Shown here one piece after another: positions 8,418 through 60,988 of a stretch of 64,000 nt of DNA. The stretch comes from Jaminaea rosea. Lineage: Eukaryota; Basidiomycota; Exobasidiomycetes; Microstromatales. The DNA lies in assembly GCF_003144245.1 (NCBI RefSeq), contig NW_020289985.1, forward strand, positions 434,001 to 498,000, given 5' to 3'. Every line of letters starts with the position of its first letter. The stretch's first letter is position 1. The notes under the pieces are model-generated. The model was given only the letters and a program-made list of their open reading frames with translations, did not search any database and was not told the origin of the DNA. A program made the translations under genes and the position numbers.

Positions 8418-8748
8418 CTTGCTGATGAGTGCGATGGTAGTGAGTGAAAGGAGGTCAAAGAGGTCAGATTAACTGGGCTGCGAGATGCGCTCACTTCAGA
8501 CAGCCTCAGCCTCAGGGTCAACTCCACCCAAGCACGGATCAAGCCGTCTCTCTGGCGGAGTGCGCGGCTCTCGAGATGCACTCGATTGGCTGGACGTCGC
8601 CATTGGGGGTGCCACGCGGCATCGGCTTGGCTCGGGGCGACGGATCGACGGCTGGCCTGGCCGGCCTCATGCCACGAGGAGGAGGAGGAGAGAACAGCAC
8701 TTCCTTCTCGTCCTCACCACCACCACTCCTACCCGTACTCAATACACA
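8418..8748. promoter_or_regulatory. Bidirectional promoter shared by IF1 and ATP synthase subunit h
   Basis: 331 bp separate the two start codons and must hold both promoters and leaders. Two ATTGG motifs (inverted CCAAT) lie near the middle, at 8585-8589 and 8602-8606. The first reads AGCCAATCG on the minus strand, close to the HAP/NF-Y consensus. HAP2/3/5 is known to control respiratory genes in fungi, so joint control of this pair is a reasonable inference. The subunit h side ends in a CT/CA-rich leader (aatacacaATG). Confidence 0.55.
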
Positions 8749-15541: not shown

Positions 15542-15628
15542 GCACCTATGGCTCAGTGGTTAGCGCGTGGAGCTGTTATTTCTAGGCAGATCACTCCAAG
15601 GTCCCTGGTTCGAAACCAGGTAGGTGCG
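15542..15628 (+). tRNA. tRNA-Asn (GTT) with a 14-nt intron
   Basis: The acceptor arms GCACCTA (15542-15548) and TAGGTGC (15621-15627) pair fully, with discriminator G15628. The T arm is CCTGG-TTCGAAA-CCAGG. The anticodon stem TGGAG/CTCCA (15568-15572 / 15594-15598) encloses CTGTTA, an insert and A, so the anticodon is GTT (15575-15577). The insert at 15579-15592 sits directly after position 37, the canonical site of nuclear tRNA introns; the mature length is 73 nt. The D arm GCTC...GCGC has one T-C mismatch. The internal A box (TGGCTCAGTGG) and B box (GGTTCGAAACC) are intact. Confidence 0.93.
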
Positions 15629-15631
15629 CTC

Positions 15632-24642: not shown

Positions 24643-25364
24643 TCTGAGCTTTCTGAGAGACACACGTCGATGCGCCGCTGCGATGATAGAGGATATGTTG
24701 AGCTTCTTGCGCTGTGTAGACTTTGTGAGTCTCGCTGGCCCGCGTCTTGATGTTGCGGTAGATGGGCAAGAAAGTCGCGATCGGTACGCGGCTGTCGTGC
24801 GACTTCTGGATGTGGAGCTCCTCGCGGCCCGCCCTGGGCACCGCGATGAGGCGATGCGGTCCAATGGGCTCGTGAGGGATGCCCAGGCTGAGAAGCGAGT
24901 CAGTTGGACCAGCAGTCGAGTGGAGCGACATCCTGTACTATCACGACTGTGCCTCCGGTGGGTTTGGAACACCATTGCGGTCGGCGAATGACCTACGCTA
25001 TACCACACTCATCCCGTCTTCGCGCCCTCCACGCACGCTCGCGACTTGGCAACCACTGCTGTTGATAGCTAGAGTGGTGAGCTTCAGCGTCTCGCCCGCC
25101 TCTACAGTCGCCAGCAGAGGAGAAGTTCGAGAGAAATCGTATCGTTGAGAGTCAAGAGAGCTACAAAGACAACTGAGAAAGGATAGAGGCTGAGACGACA
25201 CGGCGAGCGGAGGGGAGCGAAGGGATGTAGTAGTGACGGCGACGACGACGTGCGGCCGGGTCGAGAAGCTCAATGGGCTAGCTGGAAGGATAGTTGGTTG
25301 TTCTTGTGACTCCTCGTTGATCCGGCTGACGTTGAGGAAGGGTACGACTCTGTCGCGCTCTCCC
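24643..25364. other. Intergenic: upstream of DUF5519 gene, 3' flank of NHP6
   Basis: About 720 bp with overlapping open frames on both strands but no recognisable protein, splice logic or RNA gene. Probably the leader and promoter of the DUF5519 gene plus the NHP6 3' UTR. Confidence 0.35.
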
Positions 25365-25859
25365 TTAGTCGCTGTCAGCACCCTTCTTTCCCTTCTTGCC
25401 GCCAGTGTAGGCAGCCTTCTCGTCCTCGGCGCGCTTCTTGTCACGCTCGGCCATGTCGATGTAAGGCTTCTTCTGGGCGTCGCTCATCTCCTTCCAGGTA
25501 GCGCCGAGGATGCGGCCAATCTCGCCTGAGGAATGCGAAAGGGTGGGGCGAGGAGTAGGTGTGAGTAGGGGGGATAGAGTGGGCGCGCGTGGTAAAAGGC
25601 CTTGCTCACCGAAAGTGGCTTCCGGGTTCTCGGCCTTGGTGCGCTCACGCTGGTCCTGAGAGAAGAACATGTACGCAGACAGGGCACGCTTGGGGGCGTC
25701 CTTGTCCTGGTGCGCGGCGAGGAAAGAAAGAGAGGAGGGAGTCAGACGCCTGCAGTGGGGATCGGGCGGTGGATGACCGCAAGCGTGGATGGCTCAGCGA
25801 CTCACCTTCTTGGTCTTCTTGGTGGTAGCAGCGGCGGAGGTAGCCTTCTTGGGTGCCAT
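25365..25859 (-). CDS. NHP6: NHP6-type HMG-box chromatin protein
   Basis: Exons 25859-25806, 25706-25610 and 25525-25365 (introns of 99 and 84 bp) give 103 residues. The basic tail [18 protein letters not shown] precedes a single HMG box: [19 protein letters not shown], then [20 protein letters not shown], then [19 protein letters not shown]. Nhp6 bends DNA without sequence preference and assists FACT and transcription start. Length and architecture match yeast Nhp6A/B. Confidence 0.93.
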
Positions 25860-28656
25860 GGTGATTAGTGTACGGTGGGGTGGTGTGGTGGTCTGCGCAG
25901 GCGGAGAGGGGTGGATGTATGCAGCATGGATCGAGGAAAGGGAGGAGGCACGAGGGGCGAGGAGGAGCGGATATTGGTGGTCAGCTGGCCATTTCTCGTG
26001 CTTTCGGCGTGGTAATATGCTCTGCTGGTCGTCGAACGTCAGTCACGCCCTACACCGTGGCAGGCGACGCGATCGCTGGCCAGTGCATGCGTGCATACAC
26101 GGTGTGGATGCGTCGATGATGATGACGAGCACAGGTGCGGACGAGAGGCTGAGCCAGCTCTCGATCCACCCGGATGCTGTTCGCCCTCTTCTCGATATGC
26201 CCTGAGCAGCGCGTCGATGGTAGCGACCAAGCCAAGGCCATAACCACGACGTCGCTGAGCCAGCCTAGCAGCGCCAGGCGCAGGCGTAGGCTTGTAGGCT
26301 GCGTAGGCCTGAGACGCGTCCCAGCCTGGCCTGGCTGGCTCACGCTCAAGCGTAGGGCTCAGCGCTCAGCGTAGGCGCAGGGGAGCGGATGGGTGATTTT
26401 GGGTCGATTCGACGAGATACCGAAAAGCGCAAGTCCACGTCCCTCGAGCTCATAGAGTCGCGCAATGCTACGTGCTAAAACTCACCTTTAAGGGTCAAAT
26501 CGAGTTGAGGATACGATGATGAGGTTGGTGGTAAGAGCGTAGGCTGGCTGGCGGGCGGCGGTGTGGTGTGTTGGCGCGGCGAGCGAGAGCGGGCTCATCA
26601 GCCAGAGCCAGGCGGGCGCAAGCAAGCCAGGCGGCGGCAAGCCAGGCGCGAGGCCCAGGGCGGCCACACAGTCACTCTGAGCCTGGCGGGGCGGCGGCGC
26701 GGCCAAGCGGGCAAGCCCCAGGCAGGCAGGCGAGTAGGCGGGCGGGCGGCTTGCCAGAGCCAGCCCCTTGCCCCCCCGCCAAATCAGCGGTCTGATCGAG
26801 CTTGACTGATCTACGTGATTTAACGGCGGGCACCCCTCGTGGCTACGGTGTTGGCGAGAAGCATGGGCTTCGTAGGCGGTGGACGATGTCATGGTAATGT
26901 CATTGAAGTGGCAGCATTGCTGAGCCCTATCAGGGCATTGAGAAATGGTGCGCGGCCCGATAGTAAGCGCGGAGAAGTGATTTAGCCTCGTCACGGCCGC
27001 CCGATGGTGAGCAGCGAGTCACACGATCTCAGTGCCTTTGCACTCCAAGTCCGATCCTTGAGCTTCGTGCTGTCGTATGCCTCGCGAATCACATTCAGTG
27101 TCTGACAGTTCGAGCAGCTGCCGAAGAGTCATTACCGTATGTCTCGCGTCAAGACGCTACTCTGGCTGATGTCGCTCCAATGCTGGTCGTCGCTCGCTGC
27201 GGCCCACAGCGAGCCTGCACGCAGCCTCAATACCCCCCGCCGCTGGTAGCTCCAAGCCCTCATCGCTCGAGATCAGTCCCCAATGCCGCCCACTCGCGTC
27301 AAGGCACGCAGACGAGCACGCCATCACTTGCCGGGGGGTTGGAGAGCGCTGGCAAAGGACCCGGAGGTCTTGAGGACTATTGACGTCCTTGACCCTTCAT
27401 CGCGATCGAGTGGCGCTCTTCGCGTCACGGTCTGAGATCTGATGGCATTGTTCTGGCCCATGCTGGCTCTGCCTGCGCATGAACAGCGTCATCGGCGTGC
27501 TCGACAGCGGTCGGTACTCTCAACTCCCGCGAACGCGCTCGCCTCGAAAGCAGTGAGATACTGTGCTGAAACGGCGACTTCGCCGGTCGGATAGCTCAAT
27601 AGGCTACACCAGGGAGACACACCCTACGATGCTCGCCCGCCGCTGTCGGACCCGCATCTCAGCCGCACACTCTGCCTGTTGTCATCGAGTCAGAATTGAC
27701 GAGCAATCTGGTGCTGCAAAGTCGATTGCTTCTCACCTGACGCTCTGCTGCGGACCGGGAGAGGGAGATTAGTAGGTCGTCTGCGCAGATGACGGCAGCA
27801 TGATAGCTCCTGGCTTCTCGTTCAAGGTCACAACAGCAGCACGGCAGAGAGAGTACAACAGGCGCGTAAAGGCGTGATGTTGAACGAAGAGACGACGTGC
27901 ACCTTGGCGACACCGAGAAGGAGGCCAAGCGCAGAGCTTGACGGTGCTAGTTCAGACAGCATCCTGCTCGGCAGGGTTTCACTGCCTGCTTCGAGCAGAT
28001 CGAGTGCAAGTCAAGTGTCATAAGTGCCATCACTTCAGTGCTGCCATGTAGGCACACCATGGGCAAGGGTCACGGTTGACGGCCAAAGAGATTGGGGACA
28101 TCGGCTCAGGCGATTGAGGCGGCTACGAAGTACGCCTACTGGGGAAACCGCCTTAAAGCGACCCTGCCGGCGTGAACTTTCGAGCTTACGCCATCTCTCG
28201 ATATTGCCAGGCTACCATCTCCCTCCGCGATGACCATCATCATGTCGAGTCACGTGACTAGCACTTCGCACCTGCAGGATATTCTTTGCTCCTCATTCCC
28301 AGACATTCGCCTCGTCCGCATCTTCAGTCCCCACTTGCCATTGCAACGATCGCCCACTCGTCCTCGTCGCCCCCTCTAGCGTATCTCGAACGAGGCCATC
28401 GCCGACTCGCGCGGACCTTCACCTTGCCTTAGTCCGCGCTCCTCGCCTAGCCTCACACGCCTGTGCGTCCGTCCATCCCCCACTTCTCAGCCTTTCCCCT
28501 CAAAGCCGACATCGAACATGACTGCTGGGCAGATGTGTTGCTCCAGGTGACGCAGCTACTCTGAGCATCGCCCTCACAACATCGCATTTCAATCATCCAC
28601 TCAACCTGTCCTGCCTCTGAGCTGCCTTGAAAGCCGCATCAGGGGAGGTCGAAACG
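25860..28656. other. Gene-poor stretch between NHP6 and the phosphatase gene
   Basis: About 2.8 kb divergent interval. It holds the NHP6 upstream region, a GGC/AGGC-rich island (see separate entry), and then about 1.8 kb of ordinary-looking sequence with only short frames lacking recognisable domains. A CT/CA-rich leader (about 28280-28640) precedes the phosphatase start. No tRNA, snRNA or mobile element was recognised. Confidence 0.4.
26258..26785. repeat. GGC/AGGC-rich low-complexity island
   Basis: Two blocks (26258-26370 and 26535-26785) are built from irregular repeats of AGGC, TAGGC, GGCGGGC and CCAGGC. Examples are GCAAGCCAGGCGGCG followed by GCAAGCCAGGCGCG near 26620-26655, and GCCAGAGCCAG at about 26601 and 26752. 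The units are not strictly tandem. G is strongly in excess on the plus strand. Confidence 0.5.
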
Positions 28657-35247: not shown

Positions 35248-36113
35248 GTGGGCGAGAAGTCGGGAAACGAGCTTGAAGGCTAGTAATCAGTGCTTCTCTC
35301 TCGTCGACTGCTCCTTCGCTTGTGGATCTTGCCCATCTCTCCCCTCCCCACCCCTGCGTCTCTCCTCCCTTCTCGTGTGCTCTTCTCTTATTGTGTTTCA
35401 CATTCTCTCGTCCTCGTCTCTCCAACCAACGAAAGCCGTCGCGATCGGTTCTGTAACACCATCTTTCCAAGAAGCACAACTCCGACACAACCCAACTTTG
35501 TCCTCAACCATGCGATTTTGCGCCAATCACCCCTCTCTCTTCTCTATGTCCTCTGTGACACAATGCGAATATAAACAAGGAAGATGATGAGGCTGTGCCT
35601 GCGTGCGAGAGAGAGACAGAGAGAGACAGCTCAGTTGGTGGTAAGGTGAAGAAGAGGATGAGGGAGGGGGGACGAGCAAGTCATTGAAGCAGGCTGTGCT
35701 GAGTTGATGCACGGAAGATCAAGAGGAGTCGTTGGTCTGAGACCGCGACTCCACCTCGCTCGACCAACTGGACGCAGACCAGATGAGGCTGCAGCGAGCT
35801 AGCAAAGGCATCTGACGCCTCTTTCATCACGGCCTCATTGTCTTCTTCCTCGTCTGTTGGTAGAGTTATCACTCCTCTGAAAGACCTCATAAAGAGGCAG
35901 ACAGCTCCATTGGGCTGTTACCATACCTTCGACCGCGGCTCAGCGTAGTTGGAGGAAAAAGTCCTCCTGGAGTTGCGCAGCTCAGCTTCGACGACGGCAA
36001 GGTCCTTCAAAACAATCAAGGCAGCTGAGCTGATCGTCACAAGTGGTATCCTCCTCTGACAGAGCAGATTACAAGAGCGTCATCTCATCCGTCACCACCT
36101 AGCATCTATCGTC
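35248..36113. other. Intergenic: DEF1 3' flank and NIPA upstream region
   Basis: About 870 bp. CT-rich sequence follows DEF1 (35290-35420) and a GAGAGA run lies at 35608-35628. A CA-rich leader precedes the NIPA start. Nothing else recognised. Confidence 0.4.
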
Positions 36114-38949
36114 ATGAGCTCCTACGCCCATCTCGAGATCCCATCTGTGGGGTCAGCCTCTTGGCCCTCGTCCTTCTTCTCATCATCATCCATCGTAAAC
36201 ACCAATGTCTCCTCACTACTGCAACAAAAAGCGCTTCTAGGCGCTCTGATCTGCATCGGAGCCAACACGCTCGTATCGCTGGCGCTCAATGTCCAGAAGA
36301 AGGCGCATCAGCAGGCTGAGCAGCAGAGCAGCGAAGAGGGTGAGGGAGGTCAGCAGGAGGAGCGGCGGCAGGGCCGAGGGGATGGTGAGGCTGAGCGACT
36401 TGCACAGCAAGAGAGGACAGACTACGGCTCAACAGGTATGCGTAGCAGCAGCGGCAATAGCAACAGCAAGAAGAAGCCATCTCGCCCTCCCATGCCAAAT
36501 GGATCCCCTATCGAGGAGGACGAAACTGGCCCCTACTCGATCGACGACTCCTCCGCCTCCGGCCCCTCTCATCAACGTACACCGTCAGGCAACGGCGGTC
36601 CGAACGCAAAGTTCCTCCGCTCTCGTCTCTGGTGGCTGGGTCTGCTCCTCATGACTTTGGGCGAAGCAGGCAACTTCATCTCCTACGGATTCGCCCCTGC
36701 CTCCCTCGTTGCGCCGCTCGGGTCTGTCGCCTTGCTCGCAAACGTCTTCATTGCGCCTGTGATGCTCAAGGAGCGCTTCGCCACTAGCGACGTGCTGGGA
36801 GTCCTTCTTGCTAGTGCGGGAGCTGCAGGGGTAGTGGCCAGTGCGGCCACTGATGGTGGGGGCGGCGGGGAGTTGGATGGGACCCCGGATGCTCTTTGGG
36901 GCGCAATGACGCAGTTGGTCTTTGAGGTCTATGCGGCAGTCATGGCTGTTCTCGGCGTCTTGCTATTGTGGATGAGCAGCACGAGCCTCGGAGACAGGTA
37001 CATTCTAGTCGACGTAGGGGCTTGTGCCGTCTTTGGCGGCTTCACCGTCCTGTCCACAAAGGGCGTCTCGAGCCTCATCTCGCACGCTGCAGGAGGTGGT
37101 GATATCGGTGAAGTGCTCCGCTCTCCTATCACGTATGGACTCCTTGTGGTACTGGTGGGGACGGCCCTCACGCAGATCGCTATGCTCAATCGGGCTCTGC
37201 AGCGATTTGATGCTCGTTCCGGTGAGTACGCAGCGAGCAATCGCAAAGTAGCAGTACAGCCAAGCTGACCTTTCTCCTTGTTCGTCTGCGCCGACAGTCA
37301 TCCCCTCGCAGTTCGTCTTCTTCACCATATCCGCCATCTCGGGCTCCGCGGTCCTCTTCCGCGACTTCGAGCGAGCGAGCGTCGGTCGCGTGCTCGGCTT
37401 CGTAGCTGGCTGCCTCACGACTTTCGGCGGCGTCTACGTGCTCACGAGGCGCAAGGACGAGGAGGGAGGTGGTGTTGATGAGAGCAGCGAAGGAAGCTCG
37501 TCAGGACGAAGCGGCAAGAAGGCGGGAAGGCAAGGAAGACATAGAGTGTCTGCTTCTGCTTCATCTGGCCTGGTGATCGTGGACGAGGAGAGACAGGCAC
37601 TCCTTCCCGTCACGCCGACCAAAAGCAAGGACCCTAGATCGCCGCCGTCTGGCCCGATCCCAGAAATGTCGTCCGGCTCGACGGCAGCAGCAACCAGATC
37701 TCACAGCCTGGCCTCCTCCAGCGCAGCGACCAGCGCAGCAACGCCTCGCCCGGTCCTGTCGAGCACGCGCAGCGGGAAGACGCCGCGCCTGTCCTTTGTG
37801 GGCGGAGGTGCTGCATTGGGCGGAGGTGGTTATCTCCTCTTAGCGTCGCCCAACTCGTCACGAGGAGCCGGGGGCGCTCTAGCGGGAGCCGGTCAGGCTC
37901 AGCTGAGGAACCGTGTCGTAACGGGTCCTACTTCATACGAGACCTCGCCTGCCGCAGCGAAGGGCAGAGCGGGAGCGGTGAGGGGAAGCAAGAGTGCTGA
38001 CACCTGGCTACCTAGGAAGTCAGACGAGCAAAGCTCAGGCCGAGATCAAGGGCAAGGTGGCCAAACAGGCGCGAGCAGCTCCACACGCCCAAGTGCACCA
38101 CGCACCATCTCCTCTTCACCAGAGCGCATTACAGATGAGGAGCAGGCGCGGAGACGCCGCGCAGAACGAGACGAGCGTGAGGTCAGCATGCCGGCCATGC
38201 CTCTCAACTTGCCGACCAACTTCGGCTCGACGAACAATAGCGCTACACCTCCCGCCGCAGGAGGGACAGAGGGCTCCTTCCGCTCGCAGCTGTCTGGCTT
38301 CAGGTGGGCGCAAGGGGCGAATGACGACTCAAGAGCAAGTGCGCAGCAGTCTTCGACAGGCGGCTCGTCTCTCCTGCCTTCTTGGATGTCCAACCGTGCC
38401 AGCAGCTCAGCCTCACCATCCTCGAATGCCGGACCACCAGGCGCCGGAGCCTCCTCCTGGCTCTCCTCTTACGTCCCGCTCCGATCCAACTCGCGACCAG
38501 ACAGCGAAGAGGCTCTTCTCTCCCTCTCTCACTGGGAGAGACTTCTTTCCTTCCTAGCCTGCCTCGCTGGATCAGGAGTGTGCTTCCTCTTCTCCTTCCT
38601 CTTCCTCCTCAGCCCTCTGCCCAAGTTGCGCAAATTCGCCCTCAGCTTCAGCCTGGGTAGCATGCTATTCATGGTCGGCTTCGCGGTGCTGGTTGGGCCG
38701 CTCAATCATCTCCGGCATATGTGCTCCGAGGAGAGATTGCCGTTCAGTGTGGCGTATGTGGGGAGCTTGGCATTGACTTTGTATTTTGCGCTGGGACCGA
38801 GGGTCACGCTACCCACATTGGGAGCGGGCATTGTGCAGGTAGGGGCACTGCTGGCTTACTTGGCCGCGTACTTCCCGGGCGGGACTACGACGCTGCGCTA
38901 CGCGGGACAATGGGCTGCGAGAGGAGCGGCGGGGTGGTTGCCATTGTGA
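36114..38949 (+). CDS. NIPA-type Mg2+ transporter fused in frame to an Sft2 domain
   Basis: Exons 36114-37221 and 37298-38949 (76-bp intron) form one open frame of 919 residues. Residues ~40-425 are a NIPA/DUF803 transporter with about nine spans. TM1 (ALLGALICIGANTLVSLALN) is followed by an unusually long ~110-residue disordered loop, then GEAGNFISYGFAPASLVAPL and LANVFIAPVMLKERF; the splice restores ARS-VIPSQFVFFTIS. A ~240-residue disordered linker leads to a full Sft2 domain: FRSQLSGFRWAQ (~696), then HWERLLSFLACL, four spans, EERLPFSVAYVGSLALTLYF and YFPGGTTTLRYAGQW. Sft2 is a Golgi/endosome membrane protein and NIPA a Mg2+ transporter. No stop separates them. An internal in-frame ATG at 38188 (A at -3) could start a separate SFT2 transcript, so fusion versus two genes is open. 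Confidence 0.75.
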
Positions 38950-57423: not shown

Positions 57424-57462
57424 TGCTACTGCTACTGCTACTGCTACTGCTGCTGCTGCTTG
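57424..57462. repeat. CTG/CTA microsatellite at a gene's 3' coding end
   Basis: Runs of CTACTG and then CTGCTG on the plus strand. On the minus strand most of it lies just past the stop codon of the COQ8-OXLD1-like gene, and its inner end codes the final Gln run. Confidence 0.7.
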
Positions 57463-60400
57463 GCCTTCTGCTCTCGCTCCTTCCTCTTCATGCCCCGCTC
57501 CATCTCAAGGAAAGCACGCATAGTCGGATCCTCCACATTCGCAATGATTGCGTCTTCCCTCTGCCTGTCTTCTTCCTCCTTCCGCTGAGCCTCACGCTGC
57601 TTATCCTCCTCACTCGGTCCTGCTCCTGCTCCTCCTCCCCCCCGTTTTGCAGCGAGACGCTTTTGTGCCTCTTCCCTTGAGGAGCCGAGCAGTTCGTCGT
57701 TCCATTCCACCTCTGTAGGCGGGAGGGAGAGCAACGTCTCGCGTAGCCCGTCCAAGTTGTCCTGCCAGTCAGTCAAGGCATCCCGGTAGAGATCGTACAC
57801 GCAGACTGCACAGCCTGACATGCAGCAATCTTCGGGTCCTGGTGGGTCCGGTTTCGTTGGTACGAGATGGCCAGCTATCCGTACTTGGGCTGGCGGTGAG
57901 GGCTTGAGCTTGGGCTTGGGCTCGGGCTCGGCCTTGTTCTCGGAAGGATCATCCGCAGCCGTTCGCGGATCTTCAGCTGGACTGGAACGCCCCGCTGGAG
58001 GGATGGGTACGTTCTCCCTTACGTTGCTAGAGTCAGAGGGAGAGGGGGCGGCTGTTGGGTCGAGGAAGCTTGTGCCCGCTGGCTTAGCGGCGAGGGTGTC
58101 CATACGCTCAACGTCGTCGTCACTGTCTGGGGCGAGGGAAGCGGTGCTAGACGGGAGGAGAGAGCGAGGATAGCGATCTGAGAGGTTGACGCCGTAGCCT
58201 AGGAAGGAGCAAGATAGGCAACGTGAGCATGAATCCTCGCATTGAGGATGACATGCTGAGAGGCATGCACGCACTTGGACTGATCACTCACGCTCCCACT
58301 TTCGAGGACCCCGCGGTCTGTCCGCTACGGCGATGTAGCTTGAGGGGCCGCTTTTGTCGCTGCCCGACTTGCCCCTACTGAGTCTTGCCGATGTATGCAA
58401 TCCCCTGCTGCCGCTCGGCGACGACGTCGATCCACTCGCTCCTCCTGAGACTGCGTCCTTCACGACCTGCCATGTCCACCCACCCGCGCCATCCTCCCTT
58501 GCCCTCAGCACACCGCCATCCTCAAATCTATACCCTTCCACCACGTCCCTCAACACCTGTGCGCAATCGACCTTGGCCCTCAACTTGCTACAAAGCAGGA
58601 ATGTACCGCTCAACTTGCGATTCAAGCTGTAAGTCTCCTTTGGCGGTGGAGTTTTCCTCTCCCGCAGCATGAGCGGAATCTCCGCTTTGATGGCATCCGT
58701 AAGAGTTGAGTGAGTGGTGAAATCGTAGCGGGCATCGACGGCCGTGGAGGTTTTCGAACGGAATGGGGAACCGAGCAAGATCATGCTCCGAACGTGGGCA
58801 GCGACCATCGCGTCACTCTCCAAGCACTCTCCGCTCTCCTTGTCCCTCAGGAGGTACCCCACCTCCAGACTCCAGTGTCTACACTCCTCCTCTTCGCCTC
58901 CCACAGCCGCCAACAGCAATCGCAGCCACTTGTCCATAAAGTCTCGCCCATACTCCCTCGTTGCTCCAAAGTCGATCAGCTGAAGGGACCGGGTGCGCGG
59001 CTCGTAGAGGAAATTCGAGAAGTTGGGATCCGTCTGCATCAATCGGTGGGTGAAGAGCTCGGAGAGGCAGAGGTGCAGGAGTTGAGAGGCGAGCGCATCG
59101 CGACGTGGTTGGGAGAGGTGGGAGACCATCGAAAGCGGACGTCCTTTCATCATTTGAGTGGTGAGGACGCGCGACGTGCAGAGAGAGGGGATGATGCGGG
59201 GGACTTCGAAACGTGTGCCCGCTTTCGAAGATGATGAGGTGGACTTTGTGTCCTGGCCGGGAGTGTTGAAGATCTGGCCAAATCTCCTCCCCATCTCTGC
59301 CTCCCTCTCGTAGTCGCACTCGTCATTGAGCTCCATCCTCATTTGCTGGATGGTCTTGTCCAGGAACAAGCCACGAGGCAGCAATGCTGAGGCTGCCAGG
59401 AGCCAGCGAAGGTAGCCCAAGTCGCTCTCAATCGACTCTTTGATACCCGGAAACTGCACTTTCACGGCCACTTCCATCCCTGGTACCTCAGGATGTGTCT
59501 CAGAGAGCATCGCATAGTGTACCTGCCCAATACTCGCCGCGGCAAAGGGCTTGACGTCGAATCGCGAGAAGTGATTTCTCCACTCCGCGCCCAGCTCGGC
59601 CCGCATAACGCCTTCGAGCTGGTACTCGGGCATGTAGTTTGCGCTACTCTGTACCTGGCGTAGCACTTCTTCTATCTCCTTGGGAAGGAGGTCCGCGTCC
59701 TGTATCGAGAGGAATTGACCTAGCTTGAGCGCCGCTCCTCGCATGCGGGAGAGCTTATCTACGAGGCGACGGACGTTCGAAGGGGACATGCCCATTGATG
59801 CTGCCGCGGGCGGAGGCGTGGCCCCGGGGCTGGCTTCGCCCGTGGGAGGAGGTGTTGGCTTGGCGGAGGGGGAGAGGAAAGAGCCTGCCGCTCCCCACGC
59901 TAGACCAGCGCCCAGGGATCCGTAGTGCATTAGGCGTGCTATGCGAGAGGAGGGAACGCGAGAGGCACGCATGGGCGTGGATGAGGTGGCGTTGGTGGCG
60001 TCGTAGGCGGCAAGGAGATCGTCCTCATCCTCTTCAGGTTGCTGGGCGCGAGGAGTTGGTGGCGGTGGTGGCGGTGATGGCGGTGATGGCGGTGATGATG
60101 TTGAGGCTGTGGCGCTGGGTAGACCTTCGACAGATGACGAAGAAGCAGGCTCTGATTTTCTTGCCTCCTGCGAGAGAACATCAGCCGCAAAAGGAGTAGC
60201 AACGGTTTCCTTTGACGCACCCGGTGGTGGCGGGGGCGACTCAGTCGACTCTGGTATCGGCGGCTCCTTCCTTATCTCCTTCGCAACCTCCTCTGGCGGC
60301 TCCCCGAAGTAGGCTGCAAGGCTGTCATCGAGGCTGCGGGTGTTTGGAGAATTAGATGAGCTCGACTCGGCTTGGACAGTAGCTGCTGCACGACGCAAGT

Positions 60401-60758
60401 CCCCCTTCGATGGGTGAGCCTGCGCGTTGACGTGCTTCATCTCAGTGAAGGTCCCATCAGGGGCTTGCGGCGGCAAAGACGTCTTGTCCGCGACATCGCC
60501 CTGCATCTGTTGTTCCTGCTGCTGTTGCTGAAATGACGGCATTGGCGCTGTTGCTCGAGGCCTTGGCCTCAGCGCTCTTCCCTGCTGAGTAGGCCACGGT
60601 CTGGACGTCGACGATGAAGACGAAGCAGAAGCAGTAGAAGAGGCAGCACCAGCGGCCTGAGCGTATGCAGCCCTATGCGCTATCTGCGCAAGGACGGATA
60701 GGATAGTGGCCGCATCCTGTATCAGTGATGATGGTGGTCGTCCTGGCGTAGGAGGCAT
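57444..60758 (-). CDS. COQ8: COQ8 (ADCK-type) kinase-like protein spliced to an OXLD1-like domain
   Basis: Exons 60758-58292 and 58198-57444 with a 93-bp intron give about 1,073 residues. The COQ8 part has the KxGQ motif (ALKLGQFLSIQD), the Ala-rich loop AAASIGQVH, the VAVKVQFPGI lysine, MQTDPNFSNF and LIDFGATREYG. It supports coenzyme Q synthesis in the mitochondrial matrix. Without splicing it stops at KWERE inside the intron (gtgagTGA). Spliced, GPRKWER continues as YGVNLSDRYPRS into an acidic linker and an Oxidored-like motif, PGPEDCCMSGCAVCVYDLY (Cys947, 948, 952, 955). The downstream part has no ATG of its own before the acidic linker. GLHTSARLSR (~786-795) looks like an old internal presequence. 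The start used is 60758 (MPPTPGRPP); an in-frame ATG at 60971 gives an alternative longer N-terminus. Confidence 0.78.
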
Positions 60759-60988
60759 ATATGCTGCTGACGTAGGATGCAAAGGGAAGAAATGGCTTGG
60801 ATTGAATTGCAAAGCTGCACTTTCCTCTCGACTTTGCGCCTGGCCTGAGCGTCGTCCTTCTCCGCCTCTGGTTGCCGCTCGCGTGGCTTCGTGTCGAGCT
60901 TGCGCGGCCTGACTTGGTCTGGTCGACAGTCCGCGAGTCGGCGCCTCTCCACCTCGCACCTTCCTAACCATCAATCACCACCAACACA
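60759..60988. promoter_or_regulatory. Divergent promoter region of COQ8 and RPN9
   Basis: 230 bp separate the preferred starts. If COQ8 begins at its upstream ATG (60969-60971), only 17 bp remain, and most of this region would code the COQ8 presequence. The RPN9 side has a typical CT/CA-rich leader (caccaacacaATG). Confidence 0.45.

Follow-up and report, generated by a model that had tools for sequence, protein, structure and literature searches.

The window, i.e., the whole stretch of 64,000 nucleotides that was analysed, carries on its minus strand a COQ8::OXLD1-like locus (57444-60974), which consists of two stop-to-stop frames, one spanning 58284-60974 and the other 57444-58283. The surrounding genes are GC-rich (59.5%), and some of them, e.g., ERO1 and PSMD13, bear introns, which points to a eukaryote, presumably a basidiomycete-like fungus. 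By our own count, ∼230 bp separate the COQ8 ATG from the start of the divergent PSMD13 gene upstream, and the convergent Vps35 gene, which adjoins the locus, ends ∼100 bp past the stop of the putative fusion gene; hence, the locus is compact. The only room for a promoter private to the downstream part would have to be inside COQ8 or inside the intron. Elsewhere in the window, the only Rfam match at gathering score is a single tRNA-Asn (GTT) of 88 bases on the plus strand (15542-15629), a length that perhaps includes a short intron.

The features of the locus, together with the intron candidates of neighbouring genes, are collected in Table 1. The ATG at 60758 was used as the start codon of COQ8, since it is only the stop-to-stop frame that reaches up to position 60974. 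Exon 1 comprises 822 complete codons and the first base of an Arg codon; exon 2 supplies the last two bases of this codon, followed by 250 amino acids and a stop codon at 57444-57446. The initial annotation had described a COQ8 frame ending in GPRKWER, a GTGAGT donor and an in-frame junction across a 93-bp intron with a TTCCTAG acceptor, and each of these was found, with the donor at 58291 and the Arg codon split 1+2. The sole in-frame stop between the two domains, a TGA at 58284-58286, indeed lies inside the intron. Removal of the 93 bp yields a protein of 1073 amino acids with no internal stop.

Table 1. Features of the COQ8::OXLD1-like locus and intron candidates in neighbouring genes
Feature	Coordinates	Strand	Basis or signal	Intron length
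Exon 1, COQ8 (ABC1/ADCK atypical kinase family)	58292..60758	(-)	PF03109 match; PDB COQ8B/COQ8A matches	
Additional tail at the C-terminus of COQ8	58292..58529	(-)	outside the COQ8B alignment, which stops at residue 743; RGLHTSARLSR from residue 785	
Intron, phase 1	58199..58291	(-)	GTGAGT...CTCAC...TTCCTAG; non-coding score	93 bp
Exon 2, OXLD1-like part	57444..58198	(-)	PF09791 match; high coding score from the first codons on	
Oxidored-like domain, CC-x3-C-x2-C	57747..57878 (from protein match)	(-)	PF09791, residues 930-973	
NIPA intron candidate			GTGAGT	76 bp
PSMD13 intron candidate			GTAAGT	76 bp
Noc2 intron candidate			GTGAGT	75 bp
ERO1 intron candidate, first junction			GTGAGT; less sure, downstream frame without family match	80 bp
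MTPAP intron candidate			GTGAGC	67 bp

When the spliced protein was searched for domains, both PF03109 and PF09791 were matched in one frame, each with a score well above its cut-off. The ABC1 match (PF03109; 199.8 bits, E 5.2e-59) covers residues 369-627 counted from the ATG at 60758. The best PDB match of the COQ8 part is COQ8B (9tvk_A, E 1.6e-97), followed by COQ8A chains. Proteins of the ABC1/ADCK family share the KxGQ motif, an A-rich loop, a catalytic Lys, and the DPN and DFG motifs; in the COQ8 part KLGQ, AAASIGQ, VAVKVQ, QTDPN and IDFGA were found, aligned to COQ8A/B. Three NCBIfam matches were obtained with this part, the best being UbiB, and every one fell under its cut-off. From these similarities, exon 1 is probably a COQ8 gene, coding for the mitochondrial ubiquinone-synthesis kinase. 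It resembles the COQ8/ADCK3/ABC1 family (PF03109) in its domain and its best structural matches, but its N-terminal region is long, and the spliced model adds a second domain at the C-terminus.

In exon 2, the expected CC-x3-C-x2-C motif is present as CCMSGCAVC, with all four cysteines, and PF09791 was matched with 66.2 bits (E 2e-18) in the spliced protein and 67 bits in the ORF alone, against a cut-off of 24. The putative OXLD1 label is taken from this domain alone. Chain o of PDB entries 7zm7, 7zmb and 7zmg, named 'Oxidoreductase-like domain-containing protein', was matched with E 1.5e-6 by a 145-amino acid piece and with E 0.0088 by the whole exon-2 ORF. Hence exon 2 is like the OXLD1-type proteins of PF09791 in having the domain above cut-off, the cysteine motif and the match to 7zm7_o; unlike here, where the domain is joined to COQ8, the PDB chain is a separate molecule of 380 amino acids. 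These three entries are probably C. thermophilum complex I, the structure of which was reportedly presented in a 2022 paper by Laube. The papers that contain the codes include two on complex I, one of which discusses C. thermophilum complex I in its main text, where 7zmg does not occur. The term 'oxidoreductase-like' occurs neither in PMC12487887 nor in PMC8790184. Folding of a 100-amino acid Oxidored-like region without an alignment gave a model with mean pLDDT 66.9 and pTM 0.32, with which Foldseek returned four PDB matches, none with E ≤ 0.001 and none to 7zm7, an uninformative outcome. NCBIfam gave no family for exon 2.

Relatives were also sought outside the window. Among viral contigs none was found for the COQ8 part (98 pattern matches) or for exon 2 (5 matches), nor did the degenerate CCxSGCxxCVxDxY DNA pattern occur in them. 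With the 67-amino acid domain region, 132 pattern stretches in non-eukaryotic genome contigs led to a single reported locus (L001). It was rejected as a chance match, located around QDNLDGLR in a coiled-coil-looking cyanobacterial frame. PF09791 was found in 0 of 1 genomes, that of L001, but the controls were found in 0 of 14, so that by its own controls this search is uninformative.

The splice signals at the junction are strong. The donor, GTGAGT, agrees with the usual consensus at every base, and CTCAC starts 29 nt before the 3′ end of the intron. Similar signals mark the top intron candidates in conserved genes nearby (Table 1), which have CTNAY sites and lengths of 67-80 bp, compared to which 93 bp is slightly longer. 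The splice-signal search gave no good candidate at the second ERO1 junction, and therefore the signal rule misses some introns here. The NIPA candidate (37222-37297) belongs to a second apparent fusion, NIPA::SFT2, at 36060-38946 on the plus strand, where a NIPA-type Mg transporter (PF05653) continues, past this intron, in one stop-free frame into a Got1/Sft2 domain (PF04178); the in-frame coding score was positive in 12 of its 16 sliding windows, and no GTRAGT donor was found in 37298-38946.

How often such signals arise at the end of an ORF was estimated with a strict rule, in which an intron within 30 nt of the ORF end must reopen at least 100 codons. Among the ORFs of at least 60 codons on both strands, window ends excluded, the rule was satisfied at 5 of 551 ends (3/271 on the plus and 2/280 on the minus strand). 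The five hits are the COQ8 junction, LrgB and Noc2, both of which seem genuine by eye, an HMG-box gene with a doubtful boundary, and a false case at 8440; from this composition the chance rate is roughly 1 or 2 in 550. The HMG-box gene, NHP6-like by eye, occupies 25300-26042 on the minus strand, and its intron lies near 25707-25805, with doubtful exact boundaries. Between 45 and 400 nt from the COQ8 acceptor, three donors reach a score of 3 of 4 or more, and the one at 58291 is the best. A weaker donor at 58483 would define a 285-bp intron that is also in frame and removes the basic tail. This alternative, like the second ERO1 junction, counts against the fusion as modelled here; with either intron both domains are found in one protein. 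Judged from its signals, the 93-bp intron looks real.

The same evidence bears on the reading that two tightly packed or overlapping genes lie here, COQ8 ending at the TGA at 58284-58286 and the OXLD1-like gene being separate, with its start either at an ATG at 58103 or in a 5′ exon inside COQ8, so that the splice signals would have arisen by chance. The stop of the COQ8 frame right behind the donor fits this reading, and so does the open frame, which by itself is not rare. In a sampling of the minus strand every 7 nt, with coding regions kept in, stretches without a stop made up 21% at a length of 249 nt and 49% at 93 nt. Stop-free stretches being this common, an open frame by itself is insufficient, and it was rejected as proof of a fusion. 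The rarity of such splice signals at ORF ends points the other way. As had been noted, the downstream part has no ATG of its own before the acidic linker: the first in-frame one, at 58103, stands directly after the acidic DSDDDVER, 31 codons past the acceptor. It opens 219 codons, in favour of two genes, but the product would start with an acid- and Pro-rich stretch and, by eye, no basic presequence. For a 5′ exon, all ATG-to-donor exons found for this acceptor were in the COQ8 frame, and no donor scoring 3 of 4 or more would join an out-of-frame ATG exon to it. Overlapping the intron and exon 2 there is an out-of-frame ORF of 39 residues (58147-58266, minus strand; MPLSMSSSMRGF...), which is basic, acid-free and presequence-like in look. 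Against its use as a leader for a separate gene, the frame from its ATG at 58266 ends in a stop and its GT dinucleotides look poor by eye.

Coding signal was measured with a codon model, for which 11 long ORFs from the window served as training set, and referred to 2000 wrong-frame and 2000 true-frame samples. The 32 codons that begin at the acceptor and end with the first in-frame ATG scored 9.6, a value reached by 0.35% of the wrong-frame samples, and the intron scored -14.3, below all 2000 true-frame windows sampled. From these two scores coding seems to begin at the acceptor rather than at the ATG at 58103. A signal that extends upstream of this ATG and ends at the acceptor argues against two separate genes, an arrangement that we regard as quite improbable. 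Within exon 2 the linker scored 15.0 and the C-terminal part 21.7; the Oxidored-like domain was weak (-3.6, a score that 33% of wrong-frame samples reach). The COQ8 tail was also weak, its score over 58294-58520 being 0.6, which 13% of wrong-frame samples reach and which lies at the 6th percentile of true-frame samples; at ∼58355-58480 another frame outscores that of COQ8. These two weak scores and the better competing frame count against a single fusion gene.

The tail is basic and almost acid-free, and an 83-amino acid region at the junction matched no PDB sequence at E values of up to 10. Basic, acid-poor windows of 40 amino acids number 80 of 1033 in the spliced protein, at five separate places. 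The initial annotation had pointed to GLHTSARLSR as an apparent relict mitochondrial presequence. The motif is present in the COQ8 tail, and RGLHTSARLS fits the full R-10/octapeptide (Oct1-type) pattern as it is generally known; its interpretation as a presequence is conjectural. With the pattern loosened to allow [FILV] at the third place, R-10-type matches number 6 in the spliced protein and 3.4 on average in 500 shuffles, which is not clearly above chance, and the coding signal around the motif is weak. The R-10 motif was thus rejected as proof of a presequence, and its chance-like frequency is a point against the fusion reading. By eye, the linker is long, basic and of low complexity, and would suit a processing site or a flexible tether.

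Taken together, the domain matches, the splice signals and the coding signal after the acceptor bear out the earlier interpretation in part, namely that of one gene running from COQ8 to the Oxidored-like domain. We consider it likely that a single mRNA is made here, from one fusion gene in which a mitochondrial COQ8 precedes an OXLD1-like protein, either as a stable protein or as a precursor that is cut. A splicing switch would overlap with this reading: the retained intron would give COQ8 alone and the spliced one the fusion, the ratio being set by splicing. It is conceivable because retention brings an immediate stop that ends COQ8 at once, and polycistronic read-through is widespread in mushroom-forming basidiomycetes, involving up to 8% of transcribed genes according to PMC4503453. 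In that study, however, the ORF pairs are separated by stops in all frames, unlike here, and the strong consensus signals argue for efficient removal of the intron; such a switch is rather unlikely.

COQ8 and OXLD1-like families are mitochondrial in other organisms. Most likely, the two genes would once have lain in tandem; the stop codon of COQ8 and the DNA between the genes would then have been lost or made into an intron, which would leave one promoter for both. Import of the precursor would rely on the N-terminal region of COQ8, which is presequence-like. Once inside the matrix, the precursor may stay a two-domain protein, or a processing peptidase may cut near RGLHTSARLSR, releasing COQ8 and a free OXLD1-like protein. 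As an uncut, stable protein, which is an allowed form of the favoured single-gene explanation, it would bring the OXLD1-like domain to the site of COQ8 at the inner membrane. No cleavage motif in the linker is clearly above chance, in keeping with this form, and nothing direct opposes it, although the linker could equally be a processing site; we rate it as a serious possibility, somewhat short of an even chance.

No described COQ8-OXLD1 fusion, as had been claimed, and no COQ8 fusion of any sort was found in titles and abstract starts of the open-access literature in one library. Hardly any function seems to have been published for OXLD1-type proteins, and none was seen in the titles and abstract starts of the open-access papers that name OXLD1. 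Gene fusions often unite proteins of one pathway. The COQ8::OXLD1-like gene, if true, would suggest that the cysteine-motif protein takes part in ubiquinone synthesis or in maintaining complex I. A single gene for both hints that they may work together. If 7zm7 is indeed complex I, a ubiquinone-synthesis factor would be tied to a protein found with a ubiquinone-reducing enzyme. More doubtful is the stronger proposal that a conserved, lineage-specific fusion marks the poorly studied OXLD1-like protein as a COQ8 partner and ties ubiquinone synthesis physically or stoichiometrically to a protein that in another fungus is probably a chain of a solved complex I.

By analogy, the fusion gene most likely codes for a mitochondrial tandem precursor like Arg5,6, Etp1 and Rsm22-Cox11. 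Internal cleavage by MPP is reportedly the subject of a 2020 paper by Friedl. According to the review PMC8847149, yeast Arg5,6 is split into two enzymes by internal MPP cleavage, and an in silico search detected MPP sites and internal sequences resembling targeting signals in composite precursors such as Atp25, Etp1 and Rsm22-Cox11; it also describes the -10 Arg rule with its exceptions. The present case differs from these in its protein pair and in being known from its sequence, with putative localization and cleavage. As in yeast Arg5,6, S. pombe Etp1 and Rsm22-Cox11, and fungal Atp25, two proteins are found in one frame, and the COQ8::OXLD1-like gene, if true, would be one more pair among the mitochondrial tandem precursors.
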